DNA of 24,791 bases from a virus. Location of the stretch: positions 1 to 24,791 of IMG/VR virus record IMGVR_UViG_3300028767_000090; one strand, written 5' to 3'. Below are positions 22 through 22,895 of this stretch, piece by piece. The first letter of the stretch is position 1. Every line of letters starts with the position of its first letter. The position numbers and the translations under genes were made by a program. The notes beneath the pieces are model-generated. The model saw only the letters and a list, made by a program, of their open reading frames with translations. It was not told where the DNA came from and made no database searches.

Positions 22-3000
22 TACAGTACTTTTATTCCGTTTAACTTCAAATAATACAGCGTTTCATCTATCCGGTCAAGTCGGCGACAAAAAGATGTAT
101 TAGTTCGAATATCCTCCTGAATAGCTAACATTCGACTCATTACGTCGACCGCATTTTTATTGGTGGCCAAAATAGCTACAATATTCAAGCGCATAGCGAT
201 AATCTGACCTGTAAGAGCCGTGCCGGTTTCTTCACTCATTTTTGCCGTATCACCTTTAATTCCTGTTTGACTAGTCGTTTCACCCGTAAATAGGTTACTA
301 TACTTTGATAACTGTTCGTAATACAGTTTTCCGGCATCCTGTATCTTCTTTTCGAAATCAGATTGTTCTGCAGATGTCAACTCGTTACCGCTTTCCATAT
401 CTGCCGCCAATTGCTCAACGGCTTTTTGCATCGGTTTTTCTAGGAACTGTAATTTTAAAGCATGTGATACAGCATTCTTAATTACATCATTCACTACATT
501 ACCCATTGCTAAAGCAGCATCCTCACCGTTGGCAAAAGCAGTAACAAGCGCATCGCCAAGCTGAGAGGCTAAGTCCTTAGCATTTGTTTGTGCCAATCCC
601 TCAACAATGGCATCGGCAGTATCGGATATCTCATTTTTAAGTGCTTCAATCTCCGCCTTACGGTCGGCAATGGCATCCTGATTCTGTTTTTTCTTTTTCT
701 TTCGATATTCCTGTGCAAGCCATGCCTCATTAGCACGTATCTGCGCCTGTAGGTTTTGAATGGATTCGCGTTGATCCTTATAAACATCAGTACCAAGTGC
801 ATCCTCTACGGCTTTCTGTAGGCGTTTATAAGCCGCTGTCAAGTCGTTTAAGTTGGCTTCAATCGCCTTTTGTTTCTTTGCAATATCCTTACTTTTCCTA
901 TCAAAAAGAGAGAATGCGCTTGTAAGTAATCCTACTGACCCAGTGATGATGTCAATTGGGTTACCCGTTGCAATTCCTTTGGCAAGAGTAGCCGCCCCCG
1001 ATACCATACCAATTACATCCTGAGCATCTTTCTTTTCCTGCTCGTTGAGTAATCCAAGCTGATCCAATCCGCCAACTACCGACGTCAATATTCCTTGAAC
1101 ACCATCAAGAGCCGCTCCGGCAGCTCCTGCCATAGAAGCGGTAGCCTTTGCTGCTTCATCCTCCAATTTTGCTAAATCCTCTTTTGAAGTTTTAGTGTCA
1201 AGTTTACCGGCTTTAAGAGCTGCTCCCGCTTTTGTATTACCGGTAATAGATGCCCCAAGTTGGGAAAAAGGATTGTTCTTTATTTTATCACCGGCAACGG
1301 TTTTTTGAGCTGAATTAATATCAGCAAGCATCTTCTTAGCCGTTTCGGATGACAATTTACCGGCTGCCTGTTCGGCAAGTATGCGAGCCTTAATGTCGGC
1401 AATAAGCTTTTCAGTTGTTTCTTTCGAAGCTTGCAACTTATCGTTAGTAGCCAGTTTGTACAAATCAGTTTCTTGGATAAGTCCGGCTGTTACTTCACTA
1501 ATCTTTTTATCGCGTTCGGCAGTAGCATTGGCTACGGCATCGGTCAGACCTTTATCTTTTAAATCTTTGATTTTTTTATCATATTCAGTTTCAATTTTTA
1601 CACGTTCATTGGCAAATGACATAGCCAGTGTAGTAAGTTCTTCACCCCATTTTTTTGTTGCTTCTTGTCGTTTAGCTGCATAAGCATTGTCAAGTGCCAG
1701 GCTTGCATCTGCTATCTCTTTTGCCTTAGATGGGTCAATGGTAGCTACAGAAGCACTTATGTTGGCAGAATCGGTTGATAGAGGTTTAAAACCTTTCTCA
1801 CCCTTGTGATTCTTATTATATGCCGTTACAATAGCAATCTCTTTTTCCTCTATTTTTTGAACTTCCAATTGTTTTTCAAGATCAATAGCATCAAGGCGTT
1901 TTTTCAAACTATCAGTTTGTTGGTCAATTAGAAGTTTTGACGTTTGAGACTCAATGTCAAGCAACATTTTTTGTAATTCTTTTTCGGCATCATATGCTTC
2001 TTTTATAGGTTTATCTTTAGTTTCAGTATTTTTTGAAGAAAAATCATTTAGATTAACTCCAGTAAGCAGTTTTTCGATTTCTTTATTTCCTAAATTAATG
2101 AGTTTACCTGACTTTCTTTGTTGAGCAATATATTTCACAAAAAATGCACCGCTCTTATCATTTGTAATTTTATCCATATTTCGCCAAAAATCTGAATAAA
2201 CCCCCTCAAATTCTTTTGAACCTAATTTTAATTTATCAGAATCAATGTAGTCGAATAAATTACCCATTGGCTTTACTCCTGCAATTAAATCACCGGTTAT
2301 CTTATTCAGCTGTTCGCTAGATGCACCATATTTTTGCATTATGCCTAAAACGTTATCCAATGCAGCCTCATACGGCTTTACAGTTGATTTTTTATAGCCC
2401 GAAAGAGCTGTATCAGCCTCTTGTTTTTTTAATGTTGCTTGTGCAGATTTTTCAATTAACGAGTTAGCCGCTTGAATCTTTATCGCTGCATCAATTGCAG
2501 CCTTAGACATAGCCGGATAAGCATTTTTTACCTGTTCAATTGTTTTTAAATGCGTATTGAATGTTTTATTAAAGTCATTAATTATTTGCTTGGCATTAGC
2601 CGAATTATCACCATACTTCTTTATTTCTATTCCAATTTTAGTAATATCTTGTATCTTTTTTGATGCCGATCCCGAAAAGTCAGAAAACACTTTATTAAGT
2701 GCTTTCTGACTCTCAGCAGTCTTATCAATTTCATTTTTCCCAGTTACTAATTTTTCGATGTACGATATAAAATCCTTACCATACATTGTCAATAAAGTAA
2801 TACCAACCATCATAATAGACTGCCATGATACCATACTTGAAAGCAATTGTTTCCATACTGGAGTCGTTGATGCACCTGATGCTTTTAGTGCCTCATTTTC
2901 ATATCTAGCTCTCTTAATATTGTCGGCCAAAATCGGTAAATTATTGCTTATCCCTAAGAAAAAAGTACTCATGCTCACTGATGCCGCAGGAAGCTCTCTG

Positions 3001-3401
3001 ACAACCTGCTGAACGGAATAATTTAGCGAATTATACCCAACAGCAGCCTTACCAACATTAGATGCATCAACGGAATCTACAGGAGCTATTTTTGTTTTAC
3101 TAAGTCCAGAAAGTTCAGCTTTCAGTTGTTTTACAGCATCCTTTTCATCTAGTATGTTTTTTTTAGTTATCTCAATCTCGCTTAGAATTTCGCTCTTTTG
3201 GTCTTTACTTGTTGCATTTTTGTAATCTGTGCCCAATCCAACTAAATCCTTTCTTAGATTAAGAAGGGCTTCATCATGGCGCAAAATATCCGATTTTACT
3301 CTAATATGAGCAGCCGATATATCATCAAGCGATTTTTCAATCTTTGCACCTTCCGTTTCGGTGTTACCACCATACATAAAGTCAATTTCTACAGGTTCCA
3401 T
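21..3401 (-). CDS. Phage tail tape measure protein
   Basis: 1126 residues. The protein sets tail length, is packed inside the tail tube during assembly, and helps deliver DNA through the host envelope. The sequence is rich in Ala, Lys and Glu with long predicted coiled coils over residues 20-110 and much of 480-760. A stretch around residues 130-165 (LNYSVQQVVRELPAASVSMS, then FFLGISNNLPILADNIKRAR) is typical of Bacteroidetes tape measures. Hydrophobic segments lie near 190-215 and 795-835. A lysine cluster (KKKKKQ) is near residue 905. By the rule of about 0.15 nm per residue the tail would be roughly 170 nm long. It starts at ATG 3401, 12 nt after the chaperone T frame ends, with no clear Shine-Dalgarno. 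The family call is firm from size, composition and position after the chaperone pair. Confidence 0.93.
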   Translation of the reverse strand: MEPVEIDFMYGGNTETEGAKIEKSLDDISAAHIRVKSDILRHDEALLNLRKDLVGLGTDYKNATSKDQKSEILSEIEITKKNILDEKDAVKQLKAELSGLSKTKIAPVDSVDASNVGKAAVGYNSLNYSVQQVVRELPAASVSMSTFFLGISNNLPILADNIKRARYENEALKASGASTTPVWKQLLSSMVSWQSIMMVGITLLTMYGKDFISYIEKLVTGKNEIDKTAESQKALNKVFSDFSGSASKKIQDITKIGIEIKKYGDNSANAKQIINDFNKTFNTHLKTIEQVKNAYPAMSKAAIDAAIKIQAANSLIEKSAQATLKKQEADTALSGYKKSTVKPYEAALDNVLGIMQKYGASSEQLNKITGDLIAGVKPMGNLFDYIDSDKLKLGSKEFEGVYSDFWRNMDKITNDKSGAFFVKYIAQQRKSGKLINLGNKEIEKLLTGVNLNDFSSKNTETKDKPIKEAYDAEKELQKMLLDIESQTSKLLIDQQTDSLKKRLDAIDLEKQLEVQKIEEKEIAIVTAYNKNHKGEKGFKPLSTDSANISASVATIDPSKAKEIADASLALDNAYAAKRQEATKKWGEELTTLAMSFANERVKIETEYDKKIKDLKDKGLTDAVANATAERDKKISEVTAGLIQETDLYKLATNDKLQASKETTEKLIADIKARILAEQAAGKLSSETAKKMLADINSAQKTVAGDKIKNNPFSQLGASITGNTKAGAALKAGKLDTKTSKEDLAKLEDEAAKATASMAGAAGAALDGVQGILTSVVGGLDQLGLLNEQEKKDAQDVIGMVSGAATLAKGIATGNPIDIITGSVGLLTSAFSLFDRKSKDIAKKQKAIEANLNDLTAAYKRLQKAVEDALGTDVYKDQRESIQNLQAQIRANEAWLAQEYRKKKKKQNQDAIADRKAEIEALKNEISDTADAIVEGLAQTNAKDLASQLGDALVTAFANGEDAALAMGNVVNDVIKNAVSHALKLQFLEKPMQKAVEQLAADMESGNELTSAEQSDFEKKIQDAGKLYYEQLSKYSNLFTGETTSQTGIKGDTAKMSEETGTALTGQIIAMRLNIVAILATNKNAVDVMSRMLAIQEDIRTNTSFCRRLDRIDETLYYLKLNGIKVL

Positions 3402-21709: not shown

Positions 21710-21892
21710 TTAATTAGGAGAAAACGAAAATATTCCGTTTTTATGCTCGCCTACGGTGTTTAGTTCCTTTTTCAAACACCTGTTTTCTTCTATAAGCTTT
21801 TCAAATCTATCCATAAACGTAACAATTATGGGCGAATTAGCTTCCTCTTTTTCAAGCTTTATGGTCAATATTCCGTCAACTATTTGTATCAT
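21710..21892 (-). CDS. Small hypothetical protein after Bro-N gene
   Basis: 60 residues with a charged helix (DRFEKLIEENRCLKKELN, residues 28-45) likely to form a coiled coil, and a beta-like N-terminus (MIQIVDGILTIKLEKEEA). It overlaps the 3' end of the Bro-N gene by 17 nt, as coupled phage genes often do. No homologous family is recognised. The operator-like palindrome lies just beyond its stop. The evidence for being real is the tight overlap and the protein-like composition; it is short, so confidence is modest. Confidence 0.5.
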   Translation of the reverse strand: MIQIVDGILTIKLEKEEANSPIIVTFMDRFEKLIEENRCLKKELNTVGEHKNGIFSFSPN

Positions 21893-22592
21893 TGGTCAGC
21901 CCTCCAATCATTAGTTGCATACTGTTGTTTATTCGGCTTCCGCTAAGTGTTAGTTGAGCTCCTTGCGCATTGGTAAACCATGCCGGGTGAGTATTGCCAA
22001 ACAGCCATATTTTAATGGCCAATGTTTCCACGGCATTCAGCTTCTTTGCCAGTTGGTTGCTTCCGGTACTGGAGTGCAGTGAGCGGTTAAGGTCATTGAG
22101 GCTAAACCATATTTGTCCGTCAATGCTTATATGGCGCACATTATAGCCATTAAACTCTTTAGTTTTGTACGGAACATTACGCGCATCTATAAAATCGCTT
22201 GTTTGCTGACGGTTCACACCGTAATATCCTTTTTTCAACAATTGAGGAATAACCTCGCTGGTTATCCATTTTCTGAATGTTTTGGCATACGGTTTATTAC
22301 TTCGTAAGATTAAAGCATATAAACCGCTTTCTGAAATGATGTTAGTTGATTGTTTTCTACCTAAACTGTCGGTGAGGTATGTTTTACATACCTCATCTTC
22401 ATCTAAAGAGGCAACAGTTTGTTTACTGTTCACAATTCCTAAAACATCGCAAACATCCTTAGCTACAAACCATGGCTTACTTTCAATCAAAATGTTACGA
22501 ACAGGCTGTTTACTTTCCGAGAACTGGAAAGTCATTACTTCGGAGAGTTGCTCGTTTACTGTCTGAGCTTGACTGTTTTCATTTGTTTTCAT
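21876..22592 (-). CDS. Phage antirepressor-like protein with Bro-N domain
   Basis: 238 residues from ATG 22592 (MKTNENSQ); a longer frame from TTG 22652 would read through a structured RNA and a poly-U tract, so I reject it. Residues about 25-125 are a Bro-N/KilA-like DNA-binding domain: the order NILIESKPWFVAKDVCDVLGI, then SLDEDEV, then ISESGLYALILRSNKP, KTFRKWITSEVIPQL and KKGYYG is characteristic. The C-terminal half (RHISIDGQIWFSLNDLNRSL and IKIWLFGNTHPAWFTN) repeats a similar strand-helix pattern and may be a second Bro-like or species-specific domain. Such proteins often act as antirepressors in prophage switching. The gene stands alone behind its own leader, which suggests separate control. 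Confidence 0.85.
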   Translation of the reverse strand: MKTNENSQAQTVNEQLSEVMTFQFSESKQPVRNILIESKPWFVAKDVCDVLGIVNSKQTVASLDEDEVCKTYLTDSLGRKQSTNIISESGLYALILRSNKPYAKTFRKWITSEVIPQLLKKGYYGVNRQQTSDFIDARNVPYKTKEFNGYNVRHISIDGQIWFSLNDLNRSLHSSTGSNQLAKKLNAVETLAIKIWLFGNTHPAWFTNAQGAQLTLSGSRINNSMQLMIGGLTNDTNS

Positions 22593-22621
22593 TTTCTTGG
22601 TGTTTTTGTCGTGTGGCAAAT

Positions 22622-22795
22622 AAAAAAACGGCCTACCACTACCCGTTGACAAGTCTTCACCAAGAAGGCTGAATACGCCATTACAACGTATTCACGGGGT
22701 TAGTAAGCCGCATATTGTGGTACAACTGGGCATAAAAAATGCCCAACGCAACGTACGGGCAGTGAACTACCCTCTTGGTATTTAGAAAACTTGTC
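22622..22795 (-). ncRNA. Candidate structured RNA or attenuator leader upstream of Bro-N gene
   Basis: On the leftward strand a strong closing stem pairs GACAAGTTTTC (22795-22785) with GAAGACTTGTC (22658-22648), 11 bp with one G-U. After a 5-nt bulge (TAAAT) a second helix pairs ACCAAGAGGG (22779-22770) with CCTTCTTGGT (22668-22659), 10 bp with one G-U. Inside the loop are TGGGCAT/ATGCCCA (around 22739) with outer GTAC/GTAC pairing, and GAATACG/CGTATTC (around 22680), which competes with TTCAC/GTGAA. Then a 5-bp stem AACGG/CCGTT is followed by seven T (22628-22622), a possible terminator. A promoter box at 22807-22800 places the transcript start near the first stem. The Bro-N ATG is 30 nt beyond the U-run. 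The region has no codon pattern of a protein. Function unknown; I do not recognise a described RNA class. Confidence 0.6.
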
Positions 22796-22799
22796 GTTG

Positions 22800-22830
22800 C
22801 AAAACTACACAATATTTTTTATAAACCACA
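22800..22830 (-). promoter_or_regulatory. Promoter for structured RNA / Bro-N gene
   Basis: On the leftward strand TAGTTTTG (22807-22800) fits the Bacteroidetes TAnnTTTG box. About 19 nt upstream is TGTG, an imperfect -33 element. The predicted start falls within a few bases of the closing stem of the RNA at 22795, which supports the pairing model. Confidence 0.55.
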
Positions 22831-22863: not shown

Positions 22864-22895
22864 AATCCGCTCGCGCTTCACAGCGAAAGCGGATT
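22864..22895. terminator. Hairpin between accessory operon and Bro-N leader
   Basis: Inverted repeat AATCCGCT (22864-22871) / AGCGGATT (22888-22895) with inner pairs CGCT/AGCG, following the stop of the small HTH-like gene (22918). On the leftward strand it is followed by TTTAATAAAAAAAATAAA, which has only a short U-run; it is likely an imperfect terminator or mRNA 3' stabiliser. The remaining stretch to 22807 is A/T tracts with no coding sign. Confidence 0.5.

Follow-up and report, generated by a model that had tools for sequence, protein, structure and literature searches.

Antisense control of an antirepressor, as we propose it here, is known from phage P22, where the sar RNA comes from the opposite strand of the arc-ant region and is without a scaffold like that of the present RNA. 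In phages P1 and P7, the C4 RNA lies on the same strand as the antirepressor gene and upstream of it, within one transcription unit (PMC5320573, PMC8198154). C4 is an RNA of ~77 nt with three stem-loops, which carries its boxes in the loops and matures from a precursor through RNase P cleavage (PMC5320573). Of its two short boxes, which both pair with the leader, b′ binds close to the ribosome-binding site, and a′, more distant on the upstream side, provides the specificity, which a few base changes suffice to switch (PMC5320573, PMC8198154). C4 is listed for Proteobacteria and phages (PMC2864571). In E. coli, SymR is complementary to the symE start region and represses a SymE-family protein (PMC1891008). 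FopS/GibS of Bacteroides thetaiotaomicron is a multicopy sRNA family that pairs near start codons; FopS has a single-stranded 5′ seed and a terminator hairpin, one shared seed and trans targets in PULs, and it was deposited in Rfam (PMC11697453). Bacteroidota are major gut bacteria, and little on their lysogeny control was found in the literature searched.

Here we analyzed an element on the minus strand of a virus record, which was taken whole as the window (24,791 bases). By comparison of sequences, this element most probably specifies a same-strand antisense RNA, which keeps the Bro-N antirepressor gene directly behind it from being translated (Table 1). A first-pass annotation of this DNA had proposed a promoter-driven, structured RNA that controls the antirepressor, and this general reading is well supported by the comparative evidence. 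The pseudoknot of the RNA, and the complementarity between the 3′ strand of its closing helix P1 and the start region of the Bro-N mRNA, were absent from that annotation.

The RNA at the window locus

The stem, the hairpins, the T-run and the TAnnTTTG box (TAGTTTTG) all lie where they had been placed before, with P1 starting at 22795. The minus strand of 22592-22807 has a predicted folding energy of -69.4 kcal/mol, against -52.7 ± 4.5 kcal/mol in 200 shuffles, none of which is as stable. The main stem had been described as bulged and 21 bp long; it is bulged, but in the pseudoknot-free fold of the window RNA it has 18 pairs with a 5-nt bulge. A short stem followed by seven T had also been described. 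The T-run stands, but a simple consensus scan found no intrinsic terminator at it, and the supposed stem strand pairs with a strand of the loop. Judging from the relatives, what looks like a terminator stem is more probably half of a pseudoknot, in which it pairs with GCGGCUUACUA..CCCGU of the loop. A weak AACGG/CCGUU stem does exist; it is lost in one relative (L035), where the pseudoknot is kept. We do not claim that P1 and the pseudoknot are sterically exclusive; the linker lengths do not strictly forbid both.

The 78 aa gene upstream of the RNA is without a match in Pfam or PHROG. It is followed by a G+C-rich hairpin, probably its terminator, which would isolate the RNA's own promoter from this preceding gene. 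A comparable hairpin, CGCTGTGAAGCG, is found in L086 downstream of a homologue of the 78 aa gene, and another one with a T-run is found in L089. On the other side of the RNA, the in-frame extension of the Bro-N gene that had been said to encode STGSGRPFFY does exist (a TTG ORF, 21876-22652), and the likely real start is the ATG at 22590-22592.

Table 1. Positions of the features discussed, counted along the window.
Feature	Position	Strand	Basis
Promoter box TAGTTTTG, Bacteroidota -7 type (TAnnTTTG)	22800..22807	-	Read from sequence; box or close variant before P1 in most relatives with known 5′ end
Predicted antisense RNA, ~175 nt, P1 through T-run	22621..22795	-	Fold z -3.7; covarying homologs
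P1 helix, 5′ arm: GACAAGUUUUC, 5-nt bulge, ACCAAGA	22773..22795	-	P1 duplex forms in all members, with differing sequences
Hairpin P2 GGGUAGUUCACUGCCC	22757..22772	-	Predicted fold; seen in most relatives
Hairpin P3a GGGCAUUUUUUAUGCCC	22728..22744	-	93-97% of cells paired, with double changes
Pseudoknot strand 1: GCGGCUUACUA and CCCGU flanking near-invariant ACCCCGUG	22694..22711	-	11+5 pairs, 98-99% paired (n=23)
Hairpin P4 GAAUACG...CGUAUUC	22671..22693	-	94% paired; double changes in 6 of 7 pairs
P1 helix, 3′ arm UCUUGGUGAAGACUUGUC, also the predicted antisense strand (boxes b′ and a′)	22648..22665	-	Pairs with 5′ arm and with Bro-N start region
Pseudoknot strand 2: ACGGG and UGGUAGGCCGU, running into T-run	22628..22646	-	Comparison of relatives
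T-run, 7 T, presumed RNA 3′ end	22621..22628	-	Read from sequence
Target box a: CGACAA (GACAA pairs with UUGUC of 3′ arm)	22606..22611	-	Upstream of box b
Target box b: CACCAAGAA, perfect 9-nt complement of UUCUUGGUG	22594..22602	-	Ends just before start codon
Bro-N antirepressor gene, presumed target, 238 aa	21876..22592	-	ATG start; Pfam Bro-N 4.9e-28; PHROG anti-repressor Ant 7.9e-46
G+C-rich hairpin ATCCGCTTTCGCTGTGAAGCGCGAGCGGAT after 78 aa gene, probably its terminator	22865..22894	-	Read from sequence

Relatives and covariation

A direct DNA search of phage records with the window RNA gave no match. Bro-N relatives together with a pattern scan of IMG/VR gave seven distinct homologs, the window included. 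A first covariance model, in which the pseudoknot helix was coded as nested, found true matches in two Bacteroidota genomes among 395 (L261 and L264 in one, L262 in the other). A second model and one more pattern scan brought the set to 23 distinct members, after which ~30 more matches were found in Bacteroides and other Bacteroidales. The E-values of these purpose-built models are rough; matches rejected as false were L263, which sits inside a gene, L265, which is without the pseudoknot core, and L343.

In the genus of Bacteroides rodentium 13 of 41 genomes matched, with up to six copies per genome, and in its wider order 4 of 41 matched, B. rodentium again among them. The phyla of a Pseudomonas and of a Paenibacillus, with 249 genomes sampled from each, gave no match, in large batches that are scored less deeply. 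Since only Bacteroidota samples gave matches and these two phyla gave none, the genome matches are all from Bacteroidota. The family is found in Bacteroidota genomes and in metagenomic virus contigs. Among the matches listed by a pattern scan of genome contigs, blastn showed no real homolog; B. rodentium, which that scan had flagged, later gave a covariance-model match elsewhere in its genome.

Named phages and plasmids, searched with three relatives, showed similarity in antirepressor coding sequence only, or nothing. The first-pass annotation knew of no described RNA family of such a form, and in Rfam 15 the window locus indeed gave unrelated or chance matches only, both at the gathering threshold and at E up to 10. 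No description of the family was found in the open papers searched; single copies may have been sighted before in subscription papers or supplementary lists. We regard the RNA as a strong candidate for a hitherto undescribed RNA family with members in Bacteroidota genomes and phages.

In each of the seven homologs, GCGGCnnnC...ACCCCGUG in the loop is complementary to ACGGGnAGUGGnnnGCCGU, which precedes the T-run, and this pairing crosses P1 to give a pseudoknot. In a structure-free MAFFT alignment (A3) of the seven, 96.1% of the cells are paired, with 17 double-change cells, which none of 500 shuffles reaches; sliding the partner columns as a control lowers the pairing to 37-49%. The 23 members have 97.1% of cells paired and 118 double-change cells (0 of 500 shuffles reach this), and only 36-52% when the partners are slid by 1-3 columns. 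In their pseudoknot helix 98% of the cells are paired, and 9 of the 11 pairs of the long helix have changed on both sides. An independent Bacteroides set of 28 distinct rows is 93.8% paired with 135 double changes; its alignment and that of the 23 members are model-fitted, and the first MAFFT alignment is not. Stems broken without compensation had been named in the first-pass annotation as a refutation; the stems are instead kept across the homologs, with many compensatory changes. Comparison of relatives thus shows the fold, the pseudoknot, the promoter box and the matched boxes. A TAnnTTTG-like box precedes P1 in most members of the family.

One could argue for a chance structure, or for conservation of coding or regulatory DNA that is neutral to structure, as a single locus is only moderately unusual (z -3.7; 11 of the 156 ATG starts in the window pair with the arm as well as the Bro-N start does, or better). 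This is already refuted by the 118 compensatory cells, by the shuffles and by the collapse of the slid-column controls, with no ORF seen conserved across the RNA, and we leave it a negligible probability. The scaffold segments ACCCCGUG and CGGGAAGUGG have a mean identity of 0.95-0.98 and the arm one of 0.64; a near-invariant scaffold with a variable arm is what one would expect if the specificity changes while the scaffold stays fixed.

RNAs of the same topology that the models missed were seen in L003-L007, L009, L010 and L089/L090, upstream of Bro-N or another gene and directly after a TAnnTTTG box. In them a helix of ~10-17 bp is crossed by another of 8-14 bp, and the 3′ arm of L010 has a 10-nt complement over the AUG. 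These may be further scaffolds of the same kind. The virus contig of L125 carries, besides its antisense RNA, a match to the Rfam RT-17 RNA (RF03020, 44.6 bits) at 2985-3075 on the minus strand.

The proposed antisense arm and the genes behind it

The 3′ strand of P1 is complementary both to the 5′ strand of P1 and to the ribosome-binding and start region of the next gene. At the window locus UUCUUGGUG pairs with CACCAAGAA up to just before the AUG, and UUGUC pairs with GACAA upstream. In relatives both strands have other sequences yet remain complementary: arm and target are UCGAAUGA/UCAUUCGA in L108, CACUAAUA/UAUUAGUG in L116 and UGUAAAGU/ACUUUACA in L125. By itself the duplex of the window is unexceptional, as the count of ATG starts above indicates, so the antisense case rests on the comparison between loci. 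Over 23 loci the duplexes of each arm with its own target sum to -375.1 kcal/mol, against -215.7 ± 13.7 kcal/mol when they are reassigned (0 of 20000; ~11.7 SD), and the own target ranks first of 23 at 16 loci. For 25 Bacteroides loci the own sum is -520.7 against -377.1 ± 16.5 (0 of 20000; ~8.7 SD). Perfect complements that end at the start codon are found at four Bacteroidales loci (20 nt in L361, 17 in L355, 16 in L366 and 16 in L373), and at a Bacteroides tandem locus each of two RNAs matches its own gene only (-30.1 vs -7.2 and -17.3 vs -6.2). Against this, several Bacteroides copies, e.g., L347, L352 and L367, have no match to the next gene. A duplex screen of the entire upstream regions of 66 Bro-N loci was set aside as too noisy, although the relatives of the window ranked high in it.

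The products encoded downstream in the phage set have Bro-N, KilA-N, AntA or pRha domains, which belong to phage antirepressors and regulators, and two or three are without a clear Pfam match. In the bacterial copies L261 and L264 the next gene is a SymE toxin gene (PF08845, 4e-13 and 2e-10), with a 10-nt complement of the arm over its AUG. Downstream products in Bacteroides also include small proteins with a membrane segment and an uncharacterised family of ~110-170 aa. A third SymE-like gene, recognised by eye, stands behind the RNA in L371 (1501-1650), with a 10-bp match over the AUG that includes one G-U pair. The ~110-170 aa family, which has no Pfam match, follows the RNA in L345, L346, L347, L356, L358, L362, L363 and L367-L370, and at most of these loci the antisense match to the start is weak or absent. 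Proteins of ~77-112 aa are encoded directly behind the RNA in L351, L361, L366, L355 and L373; several have a hydrophobic segment, four of the five have 16-20 nt of perfect antisense at the start, and they could be type I toxin-like.

This range of targets bears on two further readings. A branched, pseudoknotted fold with the near-invariant ACCCCGUG and CGGGAAGUGG is aptamer-like and may suggest a riboswitch or attenuator before the antirepressor, which senses a metabolite or a phage protein and has no antisense role. However, each target gene has its own version of the start-region match, and no single ligand would explain targets that go from antirepressors to SymE and small membrane proteins; we consider such a riboswitch very improbable. 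The first-pass annotation had also offered a sensor or attenuator, but the data favour a gene-specific antisense 3′ arm, with the supposed terminator stem as part of a pseudoknot. In ToxIN the order is RNA, terminator and gene, with a pseudoknot. The present order and pseudoknot recall this system, and the RNA might then be a type III-like antitoxin, or a protein-binding RNA, whose pseudoknot titrates the product of the next gene. Yet short repeat units are not seen, the downstream products come from unrelated families and the antisense match is left unexplained, so that we give this even less credence than the riboswitch.

Proposed mechanism and described systems

The mechanism that we propose for the antisense RNA is as follows. 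A ~175-nt RNA would start at the TAnnTTTG box and usually end at the T-run after pseudoknot strand 2, and occasional read-through past the T-run would give the antirepressor mRNA. In the phage loci the T-run is 22-68 nt from the gene, which leaves little room for a promoter between them, so the RNA and the mRNA would share the upstream promoter, and efficient termination would make the short RNA more abundant than the mRNA. Two short boxes in the 3′ strand of P1 may pair, in trans, with two boxes of the mRNA that lie just before the start codon or over it, by which the ribosome would be shut out. In the resting RNA the antisense strand is probably held within P1; in the predicted folds it is almost fully paired there, with 16 of 269 nt free, which counts against the antisense reading and contrasts with the loop-borne boxes of C4. 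The pseudoknot helix might then form instead of P1, or beside it, leaving the antisense strand free to bind, and pseudoknot formation and target binding would jointly open P1 and block ribosome entry. In our energy model, opening P1 with the pseudoknot formed costs ~11 kcal/mol on average and the arm:target pairing returns ~16 kcal/mol, a net favourable balance in 21 of 22 cases.

The short distance to the gene, with hardly any space for a separate promoter, would also suit a cis-acting leader switch, the main rival reading. The RNA would then stay attached to the antirepressor mRNA as its 5′ leader, and the 3′ arm of P1 would exchange between the 5′ arm and the start region, turning translation on or off, perhaps upon a protein, a processing event or a ligand. 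The start region does repeat the sequence of the 5′ arm, as a switch needs, and P1 and the start-region pairing are mutually exclusive. Nevertheless, the promoter and the T-run point to a free short RNA, the target gene of L342 lies 100 nt past the T-run, the predicted fold of the read-through leader retains P1 and not the start-region pairing, and a conserved ligand pocket is not evident. We regard a cis-acting switch as unlikely, though well worth keeping in mind, and both modes may operate.

With antisense repression in trans, the likely role of the RNA would be to keep the antirepressor silent in the lysogen, also when a phage with identical boxes superinfects, and the part in lysis-lysogeny control that had been suggested for it is plausible. 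The boxes would then predict mutual immunity between phages. A wider proposal, on which we are evenly divided, is that of a mobile and reprogrammable RNA repressor, in which one pseudoknotted scaffold is retargeted across Bacteroidota through its two boxes. It would set superinfection-immunity groups of phages, and in chromosomes it would be the RNA antitoxin to SymE and to small membrane proteins, with the antisense strand released by a P1/pseudoknot switch. An antitoxin function of the scaffold is suggested by the comparison as well, and the scaffold looks like a natural programmable repressor for Bacteroides.

Among the described RNAs, FopS was set aside as a prior description on structure, and no Rfam family matches the present RNAs. 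As with the type I toxin-antitoxin pair SymE/SymR, the RNA stands before a SymE or SymE-like gene in L261, L264 and L371, but SymR is on the opposite strand and fully complementary, whereas the present RNA shares the strand of its target, to which it is matched by 10-nt boxes, and has a conserved scaffold. C4 (RF01695) gave no match at the gathering threshold, and none at E up to 10 for the window locus or at E up to 0.1 for nine relatives. The present RNA resembles C4 in being a same-strand RNA upstream of Bro-N, KilA-N, AntA and pRha genes, and in matching the target's leader and ribosome-binding region with a pair of short boxes. It differs from C4 in its length of ~175 nt, in having P1 and a pseudoknot, in placing the boxes on the 3′ strand of its closing helix, in having a T-run of its own, and also in its occurrence in Bacteroidota genomes and virus contigs. 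The best reading is that it works like C4 of P1 and P7 but is not a member of the C4 family, which suggests that the control of antirepressors by antisense RNA, as in P1, has arisen or been maintained with another RNA fold.
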